Below, one piece after another: positions 11,454 through 60,630 of a DNA stretch of 64,000 bases (the first letter of the stretch is position 1; each line of letters starts with the position of its first letter). Source of the stretch: Alternaria dauci (Eukaryota; Ascomycota; Dothideomycetes; Pleosporales; Pleosporaceae). The position numbers were made by a program, and so were the translations under genes. The stretch spans positions 6,634,001-6,698,000 of the forward strand of contig NC_091272.1 of NCBI RefSeq assembly GCF_042100115.1. The letters run 5' to 3'. A model generated the notes under the pieces. That model was not told where the DNA came from and made no database searches. It saw only the letters and a program-made list of their open reading frames with translations.

Positions 11454-11927
11454 TGTTACAAGGTAACAAGGAATTGCGTCCCTTTCATGCAGGTCGCATG
11501 AAGGAAGACCATCGGGCGGACACGATGGACGAAAGTGGATCTAGGGCGGGGCCCAGATCACGTGAAAGGAATGGCATCCCGCCAAGACCTGGCCTCCGGG
11601 AGGCCAGTGAGGATTGGGAGGTCACGGCCCTCCTAGGCCTCCCTCTTGGAAGGGAGGGCAAGGAGGACAGGACCTAAGGCAAGGGGTATAAGAATGTGTT
11701 GGATCTCATTATTACACTCGTTGTGGTCAACTCAAATAGTTCATCTCTTACACAGATTGTCAACTAGTTATTCTATTGTTATAGAATTGGTAGCGTTATT
11801 CTTTGGTTACAACGATAACTCTTTTCCACCTGATCAGTCCATACGATACCTCACGGACTACCGCTTTAGTCTACCTCGCCTTAGTACGGACCGAGCCTAG
11901 AGAAGTATAGCCTAACCCCGTGTAACA
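11454..11927 (+). repeat. 5' LTR of Element 1 (474 bp)
   Basis: Starts TGTTACAAGG and ends CCCCGTGTAACA. A TATAAG promoter candidate lies at 11,688-11,693. A near-perfect palindrome with 9-bp arms around a single G spans 11,589-11,607. Compared with the 3' LTR it differs at five positions, in the GCGTCC/GCCTTC, CGATGG/CGTTGG, CAGTCC/CATTCC and CGATAC/CGCTAC contexts. None of these look like RIP series. Confidence 0.95.
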
Positions 11928-11990
11928 CTTTAACCACCTTGGATATCAGTGGACGTTTAACCAACAGGACAGCCCGATTAAGATTCAACA
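11928..11990 (+). promoter_or_regulatory. 5' leader / primer-binding region of Element 1
   Basis: 63 bases between the LTR and the gag ATG. No TGG directly follows the LTR, so a standard tRNA-CCA primer site is not obvious; the first TGG is at 11,939. I could not match a tRNA, so self-priming or a displaced site remains possible. Base 11,932 is A here and G (sense) in Element 2, the only internal difference seen. The gag start context CAACAATGGC is a good fungal start context. Confidence 0.5.
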
Positions 11991-13931
11991 ATGGCTCATC
12001 AGGGAAACGCGCAGAACAACAGGGCTCAGGGTCAGGGACCCTCGACGCCAGCACGCCCTACCCCAGAAAATGATGAGATGCTGGAAGCATCCGATGACGA
12101 GGGAGAGAACCCTAACGTCACCGAGCTCAGGAATCTTAGGCAACACACAACCACGCAGGCTCAGCAGATTGCTGAGATGCAGGCAATGATCAATCAGCTT
12201 GCAGGGCAACTGATGATGACCCCTAACGAACGACCCGTTGCTACAAAGAAACCCAAGATAGCGTCACCAGAGAAATACGGTGGAGAACGAGAAAAGCTAC
12301 GAGTATTTCTCACCAACATCGACCTGTACTGCGAGTACAACGAGGTACCCAACGACCAGGAAAAGATCCTCATGGCCAGTACATACATGAAGGATAAGGC
12401 TTCCAATTGGATGCAACCCTATGTGGACGATTATCTGCTGGATGCAGAACACATGGGCACCAAAGAAGGAACCCGTACCTTATTCGCAAGTTGGACAGAG
12501 TTTAAGCAAGAGATGGGACGCATCTTCGGAGAAGTAGACGCTCAGAACCAGGCAGAGAAGAAGATCACTCGCCTGAGGCAGACCTCGTCAGTATCGGCAT
12601 ACACGGCGGAATTTAAGCAACTACAAGCACGGATCGATTGGGATGATGCGGCACTTCGAACGGTATTCGAAGCAGGCCTCAAAGAGAATGTCAAGGACGG
12701 CCTTGTACACCACGATAAGCCCGGGACGCTACACGCTCTGATCGAGCTAGCCACGCGTATCGACAACAGGTTGTGGGAACGAAACGATCAGAAGAAATAC
12801 TTCCGACCCAACCTGCCCAACATGAAGAAACAGCGTGGTAGATTCGACAGGGATGGCGACGCCATCATGACCGGCAAGGTACAAGAGAAGGCCAAAGACA
12901 AGAAAACCCGAGGAGGTAAAAGACACGACGGTCTCTCCAAGGAAGAACGCCAGCGGCGTTACGACAACAAAGCATGTCTCCGATGCGGGAAGACAGGACA
13001 CTTCGCTAGGGATTGCGAAGAAGAACAAGTCAAACAGGCAGCTGTCAAGATCCGGATGATCAGACAAGGCACGCCTTACCCGGCCGGGATAGAGCCGGAT
13101 GACAACCTAAGCGACTTAGACCTATACGAAGAGGCACGCTTGGAGGATAAGGAAGGCTACGAAATCGTCCCAAGAGTTAAACCGGACAACGAAGTTCTCA
13201 CCATGGGCCAGCCAAAGAAGACTGACTGGAAGGTCAAAGGCACCATCGTGATGGAACGATTAGCCAACAACCAGTGTTGGGTATGTGGTAACAAGACACA
13301 CTACGCCGACGAATGCACGGTTCGCGAACGAATCATGATTACCGGCCCGAATGCCGAAGAAATTGGGTATCAGGCGATACACCAACAACCCTACTTCGAT
13401 GATCCAATGGTTGAGGTCGAGGACCAAGAAGCCCACGAAGTAGAAGATACCAAGGATCACAAGGATTTGTGTTGGTATGACTGTAAGATAAATTGCGAGT
13501 TCCATAAGCAAGATAAGGAGGATTGCAGGACAGACCAGGACCGGTGCTGCCACCTGAACCTCTGGGCAGACGAATGTCTAGCAGACATCTGCCATCTACA
13601 CGAACCAGAGAAAGTGGAGATCCACTACAGACTTCTATGGACGCAATGCAGGAACGGGTGTGACTTCCATCGCAAGCAGCTCAAGGAAGCACACAAGGTG
13701 GATGACTATTACCATCGCACCCTATCATCAAACATCTGCGAGGTAGCAGATTGTGAGATTCACGAGGCCAAGAAGGCTCAACCAAGGAAGAGGATCACCA
13801 GGGAGGAGATACCTCACCAGAACATTCATTGGAGCTTCTGTTACGACGACAGGTGCTTGACGCACTACAGCTCAAAGAATGACACAGGCTACTTTCCTAA
13901 GTACAGGAAAGGTAAGCAGTCAAAAAACTAG
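11991..13931 (+). CDS. Gag polyprotein (646 aa) with two CCHC knuckles and a C-terminal Cys/His array
   Basis: Structural protein that would form the virus-like particle and bind element RNA. Residues 1-80 are Gln/Asn-rich with a probable helical segment (50-75). Residues 90-260 are the retrotransposon gag core. Two zinc knuckles of the form C-x2-C-x4-H-x4-C are at C329-C342 and C429-C442. Beyond them, residues 495-625 hold five C-x3/4-C-x2-H units (H at 505, 537, 560, 591, 625), four preceded by Trp. This is not part of a standard Gag, and its function is unknown. The tail is basic. The frame ends with TAG directly after the slippery heptamer 13,922-13,928, so most ribosomes make Gag and a minority make Gag-Pol. 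The ATG is the first in a good context after the LTR. Confidence 0.95.
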   Translation: MAHQGNAQNNRAQGQGPSTPARPTPENDEMLEASDDEGENPNVTELRNLRQHTTTQAQQIAEMQAMINQLAGQLMMTPNERPVATKKPKIASPEKYGGEREKLRVFLTNIDLYCEYNEVPNDQEKILMASTYMKDKASNWMQPYVDDYLLDAEHMGTKEGTRTLFASWTEFKQEMGRIFGEVDAQNQAEKKITRLRQTSSVSAYTAEFKQLQARIDWDDAALRTVFEAGLKENVKDGLVHHDKPGTLHALIELATRIDNRLWERNDQKKYFRPNLPNMKKQRGRFDRDGDAIMTGKVQEKAKDKKTRGGKRHDGLSKEERQRRYDNKACLRCGKTGHFARDCEEEQVKQAAVKIRMIRQGTPYPAGIEPDDNLSDLDLYEEARLEDKEGYEIVPRVKPDNEVLTMGQPKKTDWKVKGTIVMERLANNQCWVCGNKTHYADECTVRERIMITGPNAEEIGYQAIHQQPYFDDPMVEVEDQEAHEVEDTKDHKDLCWYDCKINCEFHKQDKEDCRTDQDRCCHLNLWADECLADICHLHEPEKVEIHYRLLWTQCRNGCDFHRKQLKEAHKVDDYYHRTLSSNICEVADCEIHEAKKAQPRKRITREEIPHQNIHWSFCYDDRCLTHYSSKNDTGYFPKYRKGKQSKN

Positions 13932-13972: not shown

Positions 13973-16900
13973 AAAACGACCCTTAGGAAGGTGCAGGATA
14001 CCGATGGTCGGGTGAAGCAGCTGCTCACGACCGTATCTGTACAGGGACGAAACATCGAGGCGCTCGTAGATAGCGGGGCCGCACGAACGATGATCTCACC
14101 CAGAGTGGTGGAGAAACACGAACTACCCTACCGGGTTAAGAAGAACCCAGTATCGGTACTGTTAGCCGACGAGAAACCCATGGAATATGGAAACGGCATG
14201 ATACGGATGGAAACCGAATCAACAAAGCTACGGATAGCTGGCATAGAGTGCCAAATGAATATCGACATAATGGAACTAGGAGGACTAGACATGTTGATTG
14301 GTTATGACTGGCTAGATGCCCATAACCCCGCCATCGACTGGCGAATGAAGACGATACTCAGAAGAGAACCTGTGCACAAGGTTGCTAGAGTACGCCAAAG
14401 AGTGAGCCCGAAGGACCAGAGCTCAACCCAGGACGGGAGGTTCGGCAAGATCTCGCCTCATAAGATCATGAGAATCTATGAGAAGGACCCTCAAAGAGTA
14501 GGAGTCATATGGATAAGACGAGTCGCGACCACGAAGGAAGGACCCTTACCACTAGAGATACCAAGAGAGTATCAGACCGACGAGTTTAGAGAACTCTTCG
14601 AGGAAAACGAAGCCACGGACTTGGCAGACCATCAGGATTGGGATCACGAGATCATCCTAGATGAAGGGGCAAAGTTAAGCCCAGGACCTATGTATCCCAT
14701 ATCGCCCGAGCACGATGCTGAGCTAAGGGAGTACATCCAGAAGAATCTGAAGAAGGGATTTATCCGACCGGGATCAGGCCCAATGGCCTCACCCATCTTG
14801 TTCGTAAAGAAGCCTAACGGGAAGTGGCGACTATGTGTCGACTTCCGAAGGTTGAACAGCGTTACTCGGAAGAACCGATATCCCTTACCACTAATAACCG
14901 AGCTCATGGATCGACTCCAGGGAGCCAAGTGGTTTACGAAGTTCGACGTTCGGGAAGGATTTCACCGAATCAGGATCAAGGAAGGACACGAATGGATGAC
15001 AGCGTTCAAAACGAAATATGGACTGTTCGAGTACACAGTAATGCCTTTTGGGTTAACGAATGCCCCGGCAACGTTTCAGTCAGTCATCAACAACGCTCTT
15101 CACGAGTACCTTGGAATCTTCGTCACAGCGTACATCGACGATGTGCTGGTATACTCTAGCGGGACGCTAGAAGAACATGTGGAACATGTCAAGAAAGTGC
15201 TCAGGAAGCTTAAGGAATACAAGCTGTACCTGCAGCCGGGGAAGTGCGAATTTCACACGAAGGAAACGGAATACCTAGGCTTCATAATATCCACAGAGGG
15301 GGTGAAGATGAACCCAAAGAAGACAGCGGCTGTACAGGAATGGCCAACGCCCAAAACAGTCAAGGACGTGCAATCCTTCCTAGGATTTGCCAACTACTAC
15401 CGGAAGTTCATCAAGGATTACTCAAAGATCACAACACCTCTCTCCGAGATCACGAAGAAGGAAGTTGGTTTCAAATGGAACGAGGAACATCAGGAGGCTT
15501 TTGATCGAATCAAGCAGATATTCCTCGAGGCACCAGTACTAGAGATGTACGACCCAAAGCGAGAGACGCGAGTCGAGACCGACGCGTCAGATTATGCACT
15601 CGGAGCTGTATTGTCGCAGCAGTGCCCAGACAAAAAGTGGAGACCAGTGTTCTACCACTCAAGAAAGTTCTCTGGAGCAGAACTAAACTACGACGTTCAC
15701 GATAAGGAGCTACTAGGAGTAGTCGATGCCTTTGAACAGTGGGAAGTCTATTTGCTAGGACTACCACACCAGATCGAGGTTTTTACCGATCACCAGAACT
15801 TGGCAGGTTTCATGACAACGAAGAAACTCAACCGACGACAAGTCCGATGGGCTGAGATGCTAGCTCAGTTCGACTTCAAGATAACTCACCGCGCTGGAAC
15901 GCTCAACGGAGCTGCGGATGCTTTAAGCAGGAGATCCGACTTACGCGAGGAAAATCATAAGGAACCACATGACGCCATGTTCAAGAAGATGCCTGATGGC
16001 ACACTACGTTACAACCAGCCGGAACTAGCTAAGATAGCTAAGGTGGCCGAGCGGGTAGAAACACTTCAGCAGCAGTGGCAGCAGAGAGCGGCCAGCTGGC
16101 AGTTCGAGCCTGACGAGAACGGCTCCGACGAACTGTTACAAGACGAGCGAGAGTACCGAGATATGATTCGAAGCGATCGAACATATGTACCCCCACACAT
16201 GAGATCGAGTCTCATCAAGGAACTGCATGAGTCCCCAGAGTATGGACATGCATCGCTAGAAGAAATGGTCAGGCGACTATCAAAGGTGTTTGCGATACCA
16301 CGCTTGCGAGCGAAGGTGCAGGACGTCCTAGGCAACTGTTTGGCTTGTCATCAGAACAAACCCAAGAGACATAAGCCCTATGGCCTGTTACAACCCTTAC
16401 CGCCACCAACGAGACCATGGAGCAGCGTAACAATGGACTTCATAGTGAAGCTCCCGAAGTCGTTAGAACCAGGATCCGGAAGATTATGCGACACAGTCCT
16501 AGTCATCGTGTGTCGTCACACGAAAGGAGCAAAGTTTGTGCCCACGGAAGAAACCATTACGGCAGAAGAATGCGCGTATGAGGTCAGCAAGGCACTTATG
16601 TCAGAACATGGGATACCTGAAGAATTCATCACCGATCGTGATAAACTGTTCACTTCCAAGTATTGGAACACATTCCTGGCAAAGCTGGGTGTGAAGAAGA
16701 AACTATCGACTAGCTTCCACCCCGAAACAGATGGCCAGACGGAACGAACGAACCAGACACTGGAACAGTATCTGAGGATGTACGCCAACAAGCTGCAAGA
16801 CAATTGGGTTGAACTCTTGCCGACAGCACAATTGGCCTACAATAGTACTAGGTCTGCGACGACTAAGTACTCACCACACTACGCGAATTACGGATATGAG

Positions 16901-18091
16901 CCGGTTGCTCATCGAGATCCAAAAGATATAGAGAGTATCGCAGTAGGTGCAGACGACAAAGCCCGCTTGATGCGAGGACTGCACGAAGAATTGAGCAAGA
17001 ACATAGCTCATAGGAACCTCACGACAGCCAAGGCGGCTAATAAGCAAAGGATTGAGGGACCAACCTTTAAGAAGGGGGACAAAGTTTTCCTGTCACGTCA
17101 GAACTTGAAAACTAAGCGACCAAGCAAGAAACTGGACAACCTCCGAATAGGACCATTCGAGGTTCTAGAGGAAATGGGTAACGTAAACTACAAACTCCAA
17201 CTCCCACCAGGCATGCGCATCCACCCTGTCTTTCACAAGAAACTCCTGGAAAGAGCACCTCCAGATGCCGAGCTAGCTACCGACATAGAGCTCGAAGACG
17301 ATGAGTACGAGGTCGAAGAAATCAGGGACCTGCGGAAAATCGGTCGTCAGTGGAAATACTTGGTCAAGTGGCTAGGATGGCCAGAGAGCCAGAACACTTG
17401 GGAACCAAAAGAAAATTTGACGAACTGCAAGTCACAGGTACGTGAGTACCATCGGAAACACCCAGAGAAGGGAGGACCGGGTCCTCAAGGGAAGAAAAGA
17501 ATTCAGAAAAAGGATCGAAAGAAGCGTCATCCTGCAACCAGCCCAAGTCAGTCGACAGTCCGGGTAGCGATGGTTCAGTTGGTTGAAAGTCCGTACCAGG
17601 GGCAGAGTTCCCCTCGGCTTGCTCTTTCGCGCGATCCTGAAGACTCAAAATGGCGTGATCTCGATCAGCGAATGCTCGCTCTCGCGCCTCAGTCTCTGCC
17701 ACTTCCAGCCGAAGTTGAGCGACCTCGGCCTCAGCTCGAAGAAGCGCCAAGCGCTTCTCGCGCTTTTCAGCCTCAACCTTCTCCCACTCTTCCTCAGTCA
17801 CAAATAAGCTACACTCAGCTTTCACCGAAATACAGCCCGCACACTGCCCAGAGGCAGTGTCCACGAAACAACGAAGATTCTTCTCCTCACACCGCTTGCA
17901 ACGAAAGGTCATCTCGTTCCCTTGTTGGCGGATACGGTCAGCACGAGCCTGGCGCTGTTGAGTCGAGTTCTGGGTACGGACGCGTCGAGAAGTCTGAACC
18001 TTGGGCATGGTCAGGGAAAGTGAGGAAAAGAGGAAAGAGAGGATACGACACCACCGGAGTAGCTATACCTCCACCACCGCCGCCGGACTAG
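13928..18091 (+). CDS. Pol: protease, RT, RNase H, integrase, chromodomain (made as Gag-Pol)
   Basis: Residues are counted from the GTG codon at 13,991; there is no nearby ATG, because Pol is entered by -1 frameshift at 13,928. Protease: D27-S28-G29, with hydrophobic I-G-Y-D at 103-106. Reverse transcriptase, about 257-435: Asp 319 in F-D-V and catalytic Y-I-D-D 381-384. RNase H, about 525-645: D531, E573, D600, D643. Integrase: HHCC finger H746, H753, C783, C786; catalytic D816, D882, E918, with exactly 35 residues between the last two (DD35E). A typical H-P-V-F-H segment is at 1078-1082. Chromodomain 1106-1156, with aromatics and W-E-P, predicts targeting to methylated-histone chromatin. 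Residues about 1160-1366 are Pro/Ser/Gln-rich without a domain and appear to be the complement of the antisense frame. Confidence 0.96.
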   Translation, partial: LGCRQGQGHAGEGSPKTTLRKVQDTDGRVKQLLTTVSVQGRNIEALVDSGAARTMISPRVVEKHELPYRVKKNPVSVLLADEKPMEYGNGMIRMETESTKLRIAGIECQMNIDIMELGGLDMLIGYDWLDAHNPAIDWRMKTILRREPVHKVARVRQRVSPKDQSSTQDGRFGKISPHKIMRIYEKDPQRVGVIWIRRVATTKEGPLPLEIPREYQTDEFRELFEENEATDLADHQDWDHEIILDEGAKLSPGPMYPISPEHDAELREYIQKNLKKGFIRPGSGPMASPILFVKKPNGKWRLCVDFRRLNSVTRKNRYPLPLITELMDRLQGAKWFTKFDVREGFHRIRIKEGHEWMTAFKTKYGLFEYTVMPFGLTNAPATFQSVINNALHEYLGIFVTAYIDDVLVYSSGTLEEHVEHVKKVLRKLKEYKLYLQPGKCEFHTKETEYLGFIISTEGVKMNPKKTAAVQEWPTPKTVKDVQSFLGFANYYRKFIKDYSKITTPLSEITKKEVGFKWNEEHQEAFDRIKQIFLEAPVLEMYDPKRETRVETDASDYALGAVLSQQCPDKKWRPVFYHSRKFSGAELNYDVHDKELLGVVDAFEQWEVYLLGLPHQIEVFTDHQNLAGFMTTKKLNRRQVRWAEMLAQFDFKITHRAGTLNGAADALSRRSDLREENHKEPHDAMFKKMPDGTLRYNQPELAKIAKVAERVETLQQQWQQRAASWQFEPDENGSDELLQDEREYRDMIRSDRTYVPPHMRSSLIKELHESPEYGHASLEEMVRRLSKVFAIPRLRAKVQDVLGNCLACHQNKPKRHKPYGLLQPLPPPTRPWSSVTMDFIVKLPKSLEPGSGRLCDTVLVIVCRHTKGAKFVPTEETITAEECAYEVSKALMSEHGIPEEFITDRDKLFTSKYWNTFLAKLGVKKKLSTSFHPETDGQTERTNQTLEQYLRMYANKLQDNWVELLPTAQLAYNSTRSATTKYSPHYANYGYEPVAHRDPKDIESIAVGADDKARLMRGLHEELSKNIAHRNLTTAKAANKQRIEGPTFKKGDKVFLSRQNLKTKRPSKKLDNLRIGPFEVLEEMGNVNYKLQLPPGMRIHPVFHKKLLERAPPDAELATDIELEDDEYEVEEIRDLRKIGRQWKYLVKWLGWPESQNTWEPKENLTNCKSQVREYHRKHPEKGGPGPQGKKRIQKKDRKKRHPATSPSQSTVRVAMVQLVESPYQGQSSPRLALSRDPEDSKWRDLDQRMLALAPQSLPLPAEVERPRPQLEEAPSASRAFQPQPSPTLPQSQISYTQLSPKYSPHTAQRQCPRNNEDSSPHTACNERSSRSLVGGYGQHEPGAVESSSGYGRVEKSEPWAWSGKVRKRGKRGYDTTGVAIPPPPPPD
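17364..18008 (-). CDS. Antisense Zn(II)2Cys6-like protein (214 aa) encoded opposite the 3' end of pol
   Basis: ATG-initiated 214-codon frame on the strand opposite pol. Residues 1-30 are basic (several Arg). Cysteines 37, 40, 47, 56, 59, 66 give C-x2-C-x6-C-x8-C-x2-C-x6-C, the spacing of fungal Zn(II)2Cys6 DNA-binding domains. Residues 72-130 are rich in E/K/R/A/L and look like a dimerising coiled coil. Residues 152-182 are acidic with aromatics (W157, F164, F167, F170, F171), like an activation region. It covers pol residues from the chromodomain end to about 1340, where the sense protein is low-complexity. That suggests the antisense strand is the functional frame there. The frame and cysteine spacing are traceable in the divergent relic at 60 kb. 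Expression is unproven. I infer a regulator, perhaps driven by the 3' LTR region. Confidence 0.72.
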   Translation of the reverse strand: MPKVQTSRRVRTQNSTQQRQARADRIRQQGNEMTFRCKRCEEKNLRCFVDTASGQCAGCISVKAECSLFVTEEEWEKVEAEKREKRLALLRAEAEVAQLRLEVAETEARERAFADRDHAILSLQDRAKEQAEGNSAPGTDFQPTEPSLPGLSTDLGWLQDDASFDPFSEFFSSLEDPVLPSLGVSDGTHVPVTCSSSNFLLVPKCSGSLAILAT

Positions 18092-18133
18092 GCGCGGGAA
18101 AACGATAATCCAGGGTATCGAGACGATACGCCT

Positions 18134-18144
18134 AAGAGGGGGGG
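18134..18144 (+). other. Polypurine tract of Element 1
   Basis: AAGAGGGGGGG, followed by TAA and the 3' LTR start TGTTAC. This is the expected plus-strand primer site and is identical in Element 2 (24,945-24,955). Confidence 0.9.
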
Positions 18145-18147
18145 TAA

Positions 18148-18620
18148 TGTTACAAGGTAACAAGGAATTGCCTTCCTTTCATGCAGGTCGCATGAAGGAA
18201 GACCATCGGGCGGACACGTTGGACGAAAGTGGATCTAGGGCGGGGCCCAGATCACGTGAAAGGAATGGCATCCCGCCAAGACCTGGCCTCCGGGAGGCCA
18301 GTGAGGATTGGGAGGTCACGGCCCTCCTAGGCCTCCCTCTTGGAAGGGAGGGCAAGGAGGACAGGACCTAAGGCAAGGGGTATAAGAATGTGTTGGATCT
18401 CATTATTACACTCGTTGTGGTCAACTCAAATAGTTCATCTCTTACACAGATTGTCAACTAGTTATTCTATTGTTATAGAATTGGTAGCGTTATTCTTTGG
18501 TTACAACGATAACTCTTTTCCACCTGATCATTCCATACGCTACCTCACGGACTACCGCTTTAGTCTACCTCGCCTTAGTACGGACCGAGCCTAGAGAAGT
18601 ATAGCCTAACCCCGTGTAAC
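18148..18620 (+). repeat. 3' LTR of Element 1 (473 bp)
   Basis: Same family as the 5' LTR with five substitutions. It ends GTGTAAC and lacks the terminal A seen at the other three LTR ends, so the TSD TTAGG follows directly. The last base was probably lost at integration or later. A TATAAG promoter candidate lies at 18,382-18,387. Confidence 0.94.
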
Positions 18621-18625: not shown

Positions 18626-21600
18626 CTAACTAGTATATAATATTAAAGAAAGACTTAATTAGAAAGAAAAGGTAACTATAAAATAAGTACTAAATAGTAA
18701 TAGTAATATAGCTCCCTTTTACTAGTACTTTAAGCCTTACTATATACTATTCCTAAAAGGTACTTATATTACGCCTAAATATATTTTAGAGATAAAAATA
18801 TCCCTAGAACTCTAACTAAAGGAAAGGGAAATACTTTTAGAAGTCTTTTACTAAAGAAAGCTAATACTAGCTTAGGACTTCTATAAATCTAAATAAGTTC
18901 GTAGAGATATTATCCTCTTAATTATTATTAATATAATACTATACTAAGCCTAAAGGGTAGATTAGTTCCTAGTCTTATAAAAGCTCTATTAGGTAGTTAT
19001 TAAAATAATTTAAGATTATATTAATAGGGGTACACTAGAGCTTTATAAAAGCTAAAACTATAATCTTTAGTTCTTAGTAGTAAAGAAAGATAAAGGCTAT
19101 TAGTTTATTAATAATATTTAGAAACTTAATAAATTTATAATAAAAGATACTAACTTACTTCCTAATCTTAATAAGTTTTTAGAAGAGTTTACTAAGTATA
19201 TAGTTATAAGTCTCTTAGACTTCTTCTCTAAGTATAATTAAGTTAAACTCTATAAGGACTTAAGAGATATAATAGCTTTCTCTACCTTATAAAGCCTTAT
19301 ATAATAGTATACTTTACTAATAAGTACTATAAACTTAGTAGCTAAGTTTATAAGGGTTATAACTAAGATCTATAGAGAGTATATCTCTAATTACTATATA
19401 CTATACCTAGATAACGTCTATATTAAGGGGCTAAAGATAAGGTATTATAATAAGGAAGTAGAGCTAGGTATTTAAAAATTTATAGCTAAATACCTTTTTA
19501 ATATTAATAAGGTATTAGTAAGTATTAAGAATACTAGAGTTACTATATCTAAGTATAAGTTAGATTTCTACTACCCCTCTATAATAGTAGTTAGGTATAA
19601 TATTAATAAGAAGGGATAATACCTAGATAAGAAGAAAGTAAAAAAGAGTACTAACTAGCCTAATTACTATAATACTAAGGATATCTATATATTTATTAGT
19701 ATATACGTCTATTATAGAGTATAAGTACTTAGCTTTACTATTATAGTAGCTTTACTCTTTAAACTAATATAAAAAATACACCTTCTAAGTAAACTAATAA
19801 AGAAAAAGAAGCTATAAGGTACTTTTAAAAGGCCCTTACTACTACTCCTATATTAGTATCTATTAAAGATAGTAAACCTTTATACTAAATTATTCTTATA
19901 GTTAATAGAAGTAAGAAAGGTTAAGGTATAGTTATTATATAAGATAATCTAAATAGCTATTAGTACCTAGTCTACTTTAAAAGTAGAGTTTAGTTAAGAA
20001 TAGAGTAAAACTAAAACTCTAGTAAGTAGAAAGTAAAAGCACTACTACTTACCTTAAAAAAATTTAAGTTATATATCTATAAGGTTTGATTTATAGAAGA
20101 AACTAATATAAAGATACTTATTATATAGCTATAATATAGTACTACTAACCTACTAAGAGCCCTTATTACGTAATAGCTAGTACTCCTTAATATATAAGAC
20201 TTTAATATTATTTATATTACTAGTAATAAGAATATTATAGCTAATATACTATTAAGAAGACTAGAGCTAGATAACTAAAAACTATCTAAGGAGCTAAAAG
20301 AAGATATAGAAGACTTTATTAATACTTACCTAAACGTAGTTTAGTTTATATTTAAAGAAATACTAATACTCTAGTATAGCTTTTATAATATAGACCTTTT
20401 ATTTTATAAATAACTACTAGTAGAAGACTATAATAAGAAGTTATAAGCTATTACTACTTAGCTCCTATTCTATAAATACCTAGAGTACCTCTCCCTAGTA
20501 GAATTTTATAAGTTTAAGAAGAAAGCTCTTTAAATAATAGTCTAAGAGCGTTATCTATTTATAATACTTATAAGGGGAAGGCCTCTATAAAGAGTTATAA
20601 ATATCCTAAAAGATTAGCTAAAGGTTATTAAGTTACTCTATAATAAGTCTAGCTACTAAGGTAAGGTAAGAACGTAGAGTAAAGTTTAAGTAAGGTACTA
20701 CTAAAGAGGATAATATAAGTAAGTTAAGAAGTATATCTTATCTTATATTAAGTACTAATTATACGTATTAGTAATAGTATAGAAGGAGTTATAGCTAATA
20801 GAGCTACCTAATATCTTATTTAAATAGATTACTATTAATATTATATATATACTACCTAGGCGTAATAGTAAGACGTTCTTAGTAGTAGTATATAATTATA
20901 TCTTATAATAGGTAGAGGCTAAAGTACTAGCTAAGAATAACTTAAAAAGTATACTAAAGTTCCTTTAGTACGTCGTCTTCTACTAATAAGGATTATTACT
21001 TAAAATATTAATAAATAGTAGCCTAGAGAATAAGGGACTTATTAAGGACCTCTAAAGCTAATAAAGGATTAATTAAGTTACCTCTAATATATACTACCCC
21101 TAAGGTTAGGGTCTAATTAAATAAGGTTATACTCTTATAGTAGCTACCCTAAAGAAGCTTCTAAAGAACTAGGTAGATAACCTACCTAATATCCTTTAGG
21201 TAAATAAAATAACTATAAAGTATACTATAAATAAAACTCTAACGTTCTTAGTATCTAGTTAATAATATATACTCCTAACTAAGCTATTAATACCTATATA
21301 GTAGATACTACTATAGGAAGAAGTTTATAATATAGTAAAACTCCTTACTATAAGAGCTAGGTAATTTAATAAAAGAGATAAGTAATTCTAAGAAGCTATT
21401 AATTAGACTATTTAATTATACTATAAAAATAAAGACTATTTTAATAACTTTAAGGTACTTAGGTCTAAGTACCTTTTAGTTAATAACTTAGTACTACTAT
21501 AAGACTTATTCTATAATAGTAATAGATTAATACTTATAAAATTTCTCCCTAAGTAGAAAGGTCTATTTCGTATTAAGAATACTAGTAAAAAAGATAGTAC

Positions 21601-24997: not shown

Positions 24998-27900
24998 CTA
25001 GTCCGGCGGCGGTGGTGGAGGTATAGCTACTCCGGTGGTGTCGTATCCTCTCTTTCCTCTTTTCCTCACTTTCCCTGACCATGCCCAAGGTTCAGACTTC
25101 TCGACGCGTCCGTACCCAGAACTCGACTCAACAGCGCCAGGCTCGTGCTGACCGTATCCGCCAACAAGGGAACGAGATGACCTTTCGTTGCAAGCGGTGT
25201 GAGGAGAAGAATCTTCGTTGTTTCGTGGACACTGCCTCTGGGCAGTGTGCGGGCTGTATTTCGGTGAAAGCTGAGTGTAGCTTATTTGTGACTGAGGAAG
25301 AGTGGGAGAAGGTTGAGGCTGAAAAGCGCGAGAAGCGCTTGGCGCTTCTTCGAGCTGAGGCCGAGGTCGCTCAACTTCGGCTGGAAGTGGCAGAGACTGA
25401 GGCGCGAGAGCGAGCATTCGCTGATCGAGATCACGCCATTTTGAGTCTTCAGGATCGCGCGAAAGAGCAAGCCGAGGGGAACTCTGCCCCTGGTACGGAC
25501 TTTCAACCAACTGAACCATCGCTACCCGGACTGTCGACTGACTTGGGCTGGTTGCAGGATGACGCTTCTTTCGATCCTTTTTCTGAATTCTTTTCTTCCC
25601 TTGAGGACCCGGTCCTCCCTTCTCTGGGTGTTTCCGATGGTACTCACGTACCTGTGACTTGCAGTTCGTCAAATTTTCTTTTGGTTCCCAAGTGTTCTGG
25701 CTCTCTGGCCATCCTAGCCACTTGACCAAGTATTTCCACTGACGACCGATTTTCCGCAGGTCCCTGATTTCTTCGACCTCGTACTCATCGTCTTCGAGCT
25801 CTATGTCGGTAGCTAGCTCGGCATCTGGAGGTGCTCTTTCCAGGAGTTTCTTGTGAAAGACAGGGTGGATGCGCATGCCTGGTGGGAGTTGGAGTTTGTA
25901 GTTTACGTTACCCATTTCCTCTAGAACCTCGAATGGTCCTATTCGGAGGTTGTCCAGTTTCTTGCTTGGTCGCTTAGTTTTCAAGTTCTGACGTGACAGG
26001 AAAACTTTGTCCCCCTTCTTAAAGGTTGGTCCCTCAATCCTTTGCTTATTAGCCGCCTTGGCTGTCGTGAGGTTCCTATGAGCTATGTTCTTGCTCAATT
26101 CTTCGTGCAGTCCTCGCATCAAGCGGGCTTTGTCGTCTGCACCTACTGCGATACTCTCTATATCTTTTGGATCTCGATGAGCAACCGGCTCATATCCGTA
26201 ATTCGCGTAGTGTGGTGAGTACTTAGTCGTCGCAGACCTAGTACTATTGTAGGCCAATTGTGCTGTCGGCAAGAGTTCAACCCAATTGTCTTGCAGCTTG
26301 TTGGCGTACATCCTCAGATACTGTTCCAGTGTCTGGTTCGTTCGTTCCGTCTGGCCATCTGTTTCGGGGTGGAAGCTAGTCGATAGTTTCTTCTTCACAC
26401 CCAGCTTTGCCAGGAATGTGTTCCAATACTTGGAAGTGAACAGTTTATCACGATCGGTGATGAATTCTTCAGGTATCCCATGTTCTGACATAAGTGCCTT
26501 GCTGACCTCATACGCGCATTCTTCTGCCGTAATGGTTTCTTCCGTGGGCACAAACTTTGCTCCTTTCGTGTGACGACACACGATGACTAGGACTGTGTCG
26601 CATAATCTTCCGGATCCTGGTTCTAACGACTTCGGGAGCTTCACTATGAAGTCCATTGTTACGCTGCTCCATGGTCTCGTTGGTGGCGGTAAGGGTTGTA
26701 ACAGGCCATAGGGCTTATGTCTCTTGGGTTTGTTCTGATGACAAGCCAAACAGTTGCCTAGGACGTCCTGCACCTTCGCTCGCAAGCGTGGTATCGCAAA
26801 CACCTTTGATAGTCGCCTGACCATTTCTTCTAGCGATGCATGTCCATACTCTGGGGACTCATGCAGTTCCTTGATGAGACTCGATCTCATGTGTGGGGGT
26901 ACATATGTTCGATCGCTTCGAATCATATCTCGGTACTCTCGCTCGTCTTGTAACAGTTCGTCGGAGCCGTTCTCGTCAGGCTCGAACTGCCAGCTGGCCG
27001 CTCTCTGCTGCCACTGCTGCTGAAGTGTTTCTACCCGCTCGGCCACCTTAGCTATCTTAGCTAGTTCCGGCTGGTTGTAACGTAGTGTGCCATCAGGCAT
27101 CTTCTTGAACATGGCGTCATGTGGTTCCTTATGATTTTCCTCGCGTAAGTCGGATCTCCTGCTTAAAGCATCCGCAGCTCCGTTGAGCGTTCCAGCGCGG
27201 TGAGTTATCTTGAAGTCGAACTGAGCTAGCATCTCAGCCCATCGGACTTGTCGTCGGTTGAGTTTCTTCGTTGTCATGAAACCTGCCAAGTTCTGGTGAT
27301 CGGTAAAAACCTCGATCTGGTGTGGTAGTCCTAGCAAATAGACTTCCCACTGTTCAAAGGCATCGACTACTCCTAGTAGCTCCTTATCGTGAACGTCGTA
27401 GTTTAGTTCTGCTCCAGAGAACTTTCTTGAGTGGTAGAACACTGGTCTCCACTTTTTGTCTGGGCACTGCTGCGACAATACAGCTCCGAGTGCATAATCT
27501 GACGCGTCGGTCTCGACTCGCGTCTCTCGCTTTGGGTCGTACATCTCTAGTACTGGTGCCTCGAGGAATATCTGCTTGATTCGATCAAAAGCCTCCTGAT
27601 GTTCCTCGTTCCATTTGAAACCAACTTCCTTCTTCGTGATCTCGGAGAGAGGTGTTGTGATCTTTGAGTAATCCTTGATGAACTTCCGGTAGTAGTTGGC
27701 AAATCCTAGGAAGGATTGCACGTCCTTGACTGTTTTGGGCGTTGGCCATTCCTGTACAGCCGCTGTCTTCTTTGGGTTCATCTTCACCCCCTCTGTGGAT
27801 ATTATGAAGCCTAGGTATTCCGTTTCCTTCGTGTGAAATTCGCACTTCCCCGGCTGCAGGTACAGCTTGTATTCCTTAAGCTTCCTGAGCACTTTCTTGA

Positions 27901-59985: not shown

Positions 59986-60630
59986 ATACCTAAGGTTCTA
60001 TCTTCCTACTATTCTTATCTCTAAAGCTTAACTACTAAGTATTATACTTATACTAATTATATAAAAGAGTAAGGTTTAGAGATATCTTTTTATTATAAAT
60101 ATTATAAGGAAAAGAACTTTTATTACTTTATAGATACTAAGTTAGGTTACTACGCTAGTTATATTTTAGTAAAGGCTAAGTATAGCCTATTTATTTCTAA
60201 GGAAGAATAGGAGAAGGTTTAGCGTAAGAAGTATATAAAGCGTCTAGAGGTTATATAGCTAGAAGCTTAGCTAGCTTAAAGTAAGTTAGAGCTTCTAGAG
60301 GCTAAGGCGTAAGAGTAAGTATTTACTAATTAAGATCTTACTATTCTAAATCTTTAGGATTACGTAAAAGAGTAAGCTAAGGGGAACTCTACCCTTAGTA
60401 TAGACTTTTAGTTAACTAAACTATTACTACTTAGACTATTAACTAACTTAGGCTAGTTATAAGATAATACTTCTTTTAATCCTTTTTCTAAATTCTTTTC
60501 TTCCTTTAAGGACTTAGTCCTCCCTTCTCTAAGTATCTTTAATAGTACTTCTATACTTATAACTTATAGTTTATTAAATTTTCTTTTAGTTCTTAAGTAT
60601 TCTAGCTCTCTAGTAATCTTAGCTACTTAA
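59986..60630 (+). pseudogene. RIP-mutated remnant of the antisense Zn2Cys6-like frame
   Basis: Collinear with 25,081-25,725. In the zinc-cluster region (about 60,085-60,190) the frame has no indel. The codons aligned with all six cysteines are TAT or TAC, the RIP products of TGT/TGC, so the C-x2-C-x6-C-x8-C-x2-C-x6-C spacing is still readable. Other codons differ by changes RIP does not explain (for example within the eight-residue loop). The start ATG has become ATA, and a TAG stands at the conserved Trp codon. Dead here, but it shows the antisense frame is older than the two young copies. Confidence 0.75.

Follow-up and report, generated by a model that had tools for sequence, protein, structure and literature searches.

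In a Ty3/gypsy retrotransposon, does the strand that faces the 3' end of pol encode a protein of its own, and what might such a protein act upon? The question is raised by a stretch of 64,000 nucleotides from Alternaria dauci (contig NC_091272.1, positions 6,634,001 to 6,698,000; hereafter the window), in which a first-pass annotation, made from the letters alone, had seen a Gal4-type zinc-cluster protein encoded antisense to a long terminal repeat (LTR) retrotransposon, facing a sense product that it regarded as a featureless shadow. The core of that claim is supported: the antisense frame exists as described, is conserved and bears the marks of purifying selection, it is almost certainly a gene, and its product is very probably, judging from sequence and structural models, a DNA-binding protein of the Zn2Cys6 type. 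The features on which the argument first turns are the following.

17364..18008, minus strand: antisense open reading frame (ORF), 214 amino acids (aa), ATG to stop, with basic N-terminus, Zn2Cys6 cluster, long coiled coil and acidic disordered C-terminus
17799..17909, minus strand: Zn2Cys6 cluster, antisense protein residues 34-70 (Cys spacing in relatives; Zn_clus matches)
17610..17795, minus strand: predicted coiled coil, residues 72-133 (AlphaFold2 model)
13991..18091, plus strand: pol ORF, with protease, reverse transcriptase (RT), RNase H, integrase, SH3 and chromodomain, and a tail of about 210 residues beyond (ORF and Pfam)

The antisense ORF runs from 18008 to 17364, wholly within the open pol frame and opposite its 3' end, and its stop falls inside the chromodomain. 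ORF and Cys positions confirm both the 214-codon ATG frame and its spacing: the six cysteines (C37-x2-C40-x6-C47-x8-C56-x2-C59-x6-C66) fit the Gal4-type Zn2Cys6 pattern, CX2CX6CX5-12CX2CX6-8C, exactly. The rest of the annotated layout holds as well. Residues 1-33 carry 8 K/R and 2 D/E; AlphaFold2 predicts a helix over residues 72-133, with a block-mean pLDDT (its per-residue confidence score) of 90-99 over residues 71-130, consistent with a coiled coil; and residues 137-190 contain 10 D/E, 6 aromatic residues and no K/R. Elsewhere in the element, the longest antisense ATG ORF is 81 aa opposite gag and 87 aa opposite the remainder of pol. When 17364-18091 was subjected to 20,000 sense-synonymous shuffles, an antisense ATG ORF of at least 214 aa was obtained in any antisense frame in 44 of them (median 70 aa), and a Zn2Cys6-like motif, inside an ORF or not, occurred 473 times over the three antisense frames.

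Selection on the overlapping frames

In the overlap the two frames share codon position 1; the antisense wobble coincides with sense position 2, as had been correctly pointed out, and the sense wobble with antisense position 2. Because repeat-induced point mutation (RIP) makes transitions, only transversions were counted, in the order shared position 1/antisense wobble/sense wobble. Between the window and L031 (C9:2562563-2571600), which is the most diverged full-length copy with an open antisense frame, the counts were 21/37/12 in the overlap (17461-18008), against 9/2/30 where pol alone is encoded. All eight pairs compared, which share sequences and are not independent (L033 stood for L032 and L034), reverse the phase relative to the rest of pol, with Fisher p values from 0.02, for a pair with 3 transversions in pol, to 8e-11. 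L036 (1/2/3 in the overlap), L039 (0/2/1) and L050 (0/0/0) were left out, having too few transversions. The excess of variation at the antisense wobble, which the annotation had named as a sign in favour of the antisense frame, is thus present: transversions gather at that position and avoid the sense wobble.

The ratio of nonsynonymous to synonymous substitution rates (dN/dS), proposed at the outset as a second check, points the same way in four comparisons. For L031, L033, L032 and L045, respectively, it is 0.23, 0.20, 0.19 and 0.38 in the antisense frame, against 1.57, 1.56, 1.41 and 0.92 in the sense frame over the same bases, and 0.13, 0.22, 0.31 and 0.23 in pol, these values being obtained from copies that are RIP-damaged to a varying degree, with stop codons skipped and with an antisense dS (0.87-1.31) near saturation. 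For these reasons the phase test is the firmer of the two. Protein identity to the window is 76% for the antisense product and 49% for the sense tail in L031, and 70-72% versus 50-53% in L032-L034, while in copies that differ mainly by RIP both frames are nearly equal (L036, for example, 67% antisense versus 62% sense).

A search of the species' own genome (34.9 Mb, 10 contigs) gave 83 matches to the antisense gene, the window copy counted. Two further copies lie in the window itself, at 25081-25722 (plus strand), encoding an identical 214-aa protein, and at 59989-60627 (plus strand), heavily damaged by RIP (7 TAG, 8 TAA). Among the 30 closest copies, the window's included, both frames are open across the overlap in 19, only the antisense frame in 2, only the sense frame in none and neither in 9; on the test of stops that the annotation had named, these counts speak for the antisense frame. 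The changes in broken copies are mostly C>T/G>A, the RIP pattern, so that stops in degraded copies hardly test selection. A 1815-residue open frame at C7:2734561 was set aside: it adjoins a stretch of N, with the truncated copy L035 alongside.

The dismissal of the sense product as a shadow stands in one part only. The tail beyond the chromodomain is free in sequence, yet it is open far more than antisense-synonymous shuffles allow, since the sense frame stays open in 7 of 20,000 (58 of 20,000 when only the part beyond the chromodomain is considered). It is therefore quite conceivable, if somewhat less than an even bet, that both frames matter, the sense frame as a disordered Pro/Gln/Ser-rich extension of pol whose exact sequence hardly matters, or through its mere openness, against a long 3' untranslated region and nonsense-mediated decay of the genomic RNA; this would be compatible with a functional antisense gene. 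A long tail is indeed found in 23 of the 58 pol relatives retrieved with the chromodomain plus tail (P0133-P0154 and P0156, with 201-351 residues past the chromodomain alignment and a tail identity of 35-57%). Of the other 35, 28 stop 0-50 residues past that alignment, and P0158 (Alternaria panax), whose chromodomain is 95% identical, ends 14 residues past it; even close relatives may therefore lack the tail. A role of the tail is also opposed by the sense dN/dS, about 1 or above, and by three sense stops in the overlap of L031, whose antisense frame is open (RIP could be their cause), and avoidance of TpA/CpA at codon borders could explain part of the openness. Pol seems to have been extended through an older antisense gene: the sense frame would have run through it later, giving a tail with little sequence constraint that is kept free of stops, perhaps as a disordered extension or against decay of an RNA with a long 3' untranslated region. 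The locus is a case of two fully overlapping genes in which the protein of one strand is constrained and the other frame is mainly kept open.

The encoded protein and its relatives

A protein search at E<=1e-3 returned 165 relatives; a profile built from 34 members returned 197. Many of the best 120 of each set are nameless; the named ones belong to Bipolaris, Exserohilum, Pyrenophora, Alternaria and Stemphylium, all Pleosporaceae. Of the 120 relatives listed, 110 keep the 2-6-8-2-6 spacing of the cysteines exactly, the other ten comprising three N-terminally truncated chains and seven with a replaced Cys. A C-terminal signature complementary to the chromodomain is present in 58 of these 120, and in 10 of 36 hand-picked NCBI-named entries, from Pyrenophora, Bipolaris, Stemphylium and Exserohilum. 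Since four genera are represented, the layout in which the gene ends over the chromodomain is common to several genera. Some public entries of the family bear labels that name no retrotransposon ('Zn(2)-C6 fungal-type', 'GAL4 domain containing'; one entry is a 'Chromo domain containing protein'), which suggests that some fungal hypothetical proteins with a 'Zn(2)-C6 domain' are retrotransposon genes. In P0050 (Exserohilum turcicum) and P0064, both among the 120 relatives listed, one chain holds two zinc clusters in tandem, as if the DNA-binding part had been duplicated.

The predicted fold appears to resemble that of Zn2Cys6 factors. When the AlphaFold2 model was compared by Foldseek with the Protein Data Bank (PDB), all 15 matches at E<=10 were to such factors (Put3, Hap1, Ppr1, Pho7, Gal4, Leu3 and AlcR). 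With Gal4, Ppr1, Put3, Hap1 and Leu3 the window protein shares Cys spacing, a predicted coiled coil and an acidic tail, and in the model what appears to be a zinc-cluster-like fold; it differs from them in being carried antisense by a retrotransposon and in its weak Pfam score. Typical fungal Zn2Cys6 transcription factors are also much longer than 214 aa. The profile search that had been recommended gave a weak answer: the window protein falls under the cut-off of Pfam Zn_clus (PF00172), while two relatives, P0117 and P0101, exceed it (22.0 and 22.1 versus 21 bits), and 31 of 34 family members scanned match at E<=1. A sequence search of solved structures yielded weak matches only (E 0.39 or worse), and an NCBIfam scan gave nothing informative for this protein.

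Relatives were also searched for in viral contigs, where none was confirmed. No antisense zinc-cluster match was found by tblastn in four stretches of other Ty3 families of the genome (L051-L054), drawn from 114 RNase H matches of which most belong to the element's own family or are heavily mutated; this negative is weak because the stretches are short and degraded. Nor did tblastn give a match beside another Ty3 element, whose identity to pol is about 40%, at about 8334-8999 of L047. The same locus holds, at 1540-1836, a degraded antisense match adjoining a different pol stretch.

The U3 region and the possible target

If the antisense gene encodes a DNA-binding protein, the nearby LTR is a candidate target. 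Three features bear on this point.

17631..18394, no strand assigned: exchangeable cassette, antisense residues 1 to about 126 plus the U3 of the LTR (subfamily divergence)
18148..18620, plus strand: 3' LTR, with TATAAG at 18381 and TTAGG directly after (LTR comparison, target duplication)
18009..18048, minus strand: pyrimidine-rich tract immediately before the antisense ATG, purine-rich when read on the sense strand (87.5% C+T in 40 nucleotides)

Copies of the element fall into subfamilies A (the window), B (L033, with L034 alike) and C (L031). Between the window and L033, transversions number 0 in 1941 aligned bases of gag and 3 in the 3373 pol bases that precede the overlap, against 54 in 408 of the antisense gene (17601-18008) and 36 in 233 of the 3' LTR U3. 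The rest of the 3' LTR, with R and U5, has 3 in 226, and the 56 bases between gene and LTR (18092-18147), with the polypurine tract, are conserved, with 1 transversion. Dense divergence in the gene begins at about 17631, residue 126 or so, near the end of the predicted coiled coil. In L050 and L039 the gene is nearly unchanged and so is U3 (3/247 and 4/247 transversions). Subfamily C has the same diverged block, with gag diverged too, while its pol and antisense C-terminus are much closer to the window, which makes it a mosaic. Since both parts diverge between subfamilies A and B while gag and pol are nearly identical, the DNA-binding/dimerization part and U3 travel together. That a zinc-cluster/coiled-coil part and U3 diverge as one exchangeable block, with gag and pol almost identical, is new.

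One might picture antisense gene and U3 as a regulator-plus-target cassette under joint selection, each subfamily's protein recognizing its own U3, in a manner likened here to the immunity region of lambdoid phages. Were this true, a swap of the cassette would change the regulatory type of an element and leave the rest of it as it was, so that it escapes or ignores control by resident copies. I regard this idea as unlikely.

The explanation that I favour, with moderate confidence in it as a whole, is that of a genuine antisense accessory gene for a small Zn2Cys6 factor acting on the element's own U3. Its leftward transcription would start either in the spacer between pol and the LTR or in the 3' LTR itself. 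The pyrimidine tract is promoter-like in position: its C+T content is reached by 0.04% of 40-mers on the antisense strand of the element and lies between 0.75 and 0.88 in 12 of 12 copies compared (the window's and 11 further ones), and in filamentous fungi start sites typically have CT-rich sequence close by. Another role of the tract is possible, since the same bases are purine-rich on the sense strand. The product, with its zinc cluster, coiled-coil dimerization helix and acidic, activation-like tail, might enter the nucleus as a dimer, bind sites in U3 and adjust sense transcription, in the manner of HBZ, which is encoded on the antisense strand of HTLV-1; activation is somewhat likelier than repression because of the acidic tail. 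The element may in this way control its own activity. Expression, DNA binding and LTR control are all read from sequence and models, and for the last of these, action on the element's own LTR, I would put the chances at about even.

Several observations weigh against this explanation. U3 shows no excess of CGG half-sites (7 observed versus 7.7 expected) or of CGG/CCG pairs (2 versus 3.4). Gene and U3 could diverge jointly without being linked in function: situated as they are at the 3' end of the RNA, they would both be replaced by a single template switch, U3 then being copied to both LTRs. The AlphaFold2 model has a mean pLDDT of 68, with values below 50 for residues 138-214; the best E value among the Foldseek matches is 0.31, short of a threshold of 1e-3, and Z in the VIA comparison is <5 throughout. 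The window protein scores 12 bits against the Zn_clus cut-off of 21, which just 2 of 10 singly scanned relatives exceed. Beside the Cys replaced in 7 of the 120 listed relatives, Cys47 is lost from the zinc cluster in L031, which is therefore partly decayed itself. The qualifications attached above to dN/dS belong here too.

The absence of CGG enrichment in U3, together with the Zn2Cys6-like predicted fold, would suit a protein that is real and nuclear but whose target is host genes or chromatin, in host regulation or integration targeting; the antisense stop inside the chromodomain also ties the gene physically to the integration module. This is rather unlikely, in view of the co-divergence of the DNA-binding part with U3 in subfamilies B and C and of the lack of a free-standing host copy among the 20 long loci searched (L031-L050), all of which have a pol match. 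It is more improbable still that the main action is that of the antisense RNA, through double-stranded RNA or interference with sense transcription, the protein being secondary. A transcript running antisense across that end of pol would overlap the sense RNA completely, and the same possibility is raised for plant elements in the part of a review cited here (PMC7264820), but RNA alone needs neither an antisense dN/dS of 0.19-0.38 nor conserved Cys spacing. Finally, a shadow ORF, arising as a side effect of sense coding and showing the motif by chance, would be consistent with the full overlap by an open sense frame and with the 44 shuffles that reach such a length, but it is contradicted by substitution phase and dN/dS, the sense frame being without clear protein-level constraint in the overlap (0.92-1.57), the phase reversed, and antisense identity higher than sense-tail identity in L031 and L032-L034, if nearly equal in the mainly-RIP copies.

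Precedents and the element itself

Antisense genes as such are not new to the Ty3/gypsy elements of fungi, since Zhao et al. (2011, Virology 417:248) reportedly described brtn as the antisense gene of Boty-like elements of Botrytis cinerea. In the sections of the sources used here, brtn is an additional gene, in antisense orientation to gag-pol, that lies between pol and the 3' LTR (PMC7264820), Boty is a fungal gag-pol element with a chromodomain (PMC4227169), and brtn is mentioned again in PMC8365987 and PMC5987419. Compared by these partial descriptions only, the two systems share a fungal chromodomain element and a gene antisense to gag-pol; the window gene differs in lying wholly inside the open pol frame and in encoding a Zn2Cys6-like protein. 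No Botrytis-named entry occurs among the best 120 of the 165 relatives or the best 120 of the 197, many of which are nameless. The annotation knew of antisense ORFs in plant elements but of none with this domain. On the second point, the literature searched, mostly at title/abstract level, yielded no description of an LTR element with an antisense gene of the Zn2Cys6 type, and the word 'antisense' is absent from the main text of three surveys of fungal elements (PMC3248453, PMC4112212, PMC2864245).

The plant cases, as given in the consulted portions of PMC7264820 and PMC11963269, are Grande gene23, RIRE2, Retand (TRP28 domain) and PvRetro13 (SMC domain). Nuclear localization is reported for the gene23 product, and DNA binding is suggested for Retand TRP28 (PMC11963269). 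In the passages of the 2020 review (PMC7264820) drawn on here, the roles of antisense accessory genes were undetermined and no clear protein similarities were described, the SMC domain of PvRetro13 and the transposase-28 domain of Retand being noted all the same. With the plant ORFs, so far as these excerpts describe them, the window gene shares the antisense orientation at the 3' end of the element; they differ in domains and hosts, and are sited between pol and the 3' LTR, not inside pol. With regard to the class called aORF-3R, the window gene is a conserved ORF antisense to gag-pol at the 3' end (83 genome matches, 165 relatives, purifying selection), placed wholly inside a pol frame that is open to 18091 and not between pol and the 3' LTR.

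HBZ, a dimerizing bZIP factor made from the 3' end of HTLV-1, is the parallel for the nuclear role proposed here by analogy. It is an antisense gene whose nuclear protein is important for the virus, according to the part of PMC11963269 consulted. Being a bZIP and not a zinc-cluster protein, and from an animal retrovirus, it is likened to the window gene with no claim of homology. Antisense accessory genes of LTR retrotransposons are thus known and their roles are not, whereas the window gene has the layout of well-understood DNA-binding regulators. This layout, the codon-level selection and a nearby candidate target together make the function of retrotransposon antisense genes testable in laboratory yeast.

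The carrier is a complete and recent Ty3/gypsy chromodomain element, with gag, protease-RT-RNase H-integrase and a chromodomain in that order in the Pfam scan, and with LTRs and a short target duplication. Its remaining features are these.

11454..11926, plus strand: 5' LTR, 473 bp, TTAGG directly before (468/473 the same as the 3' LTR)
11991..13931, plus strand: gag ORF, 646 aa, Retrotrans_gag/Ty3_capsid and CCHC knuckles (ORF and Pfam)

The chromodomain match covers pol residues 1106-1156; for the integrase, rve is under its cut-off and Integrase_H2C2 over it. In the last quarter of gag (13440-13900, plus strand), past the CCHC knuckles, there is a row of Cys/His-rich segments without a clear Pfam match (WCCH, E 0.27). 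The bases after the 5' LTR (11927-11960, ACTTTAACCACC...) do not, by eye, resemble the tRNA primer site commonly found there; the element may be self-primed or may use an uncommon tRNA. The duplication TTAGG flanks the element on both sides, and the element appears to have been inserted into old degraded repeats. The sequence downstream of it, from about 18640 to 20000, is very AT-rich and RIP-like.

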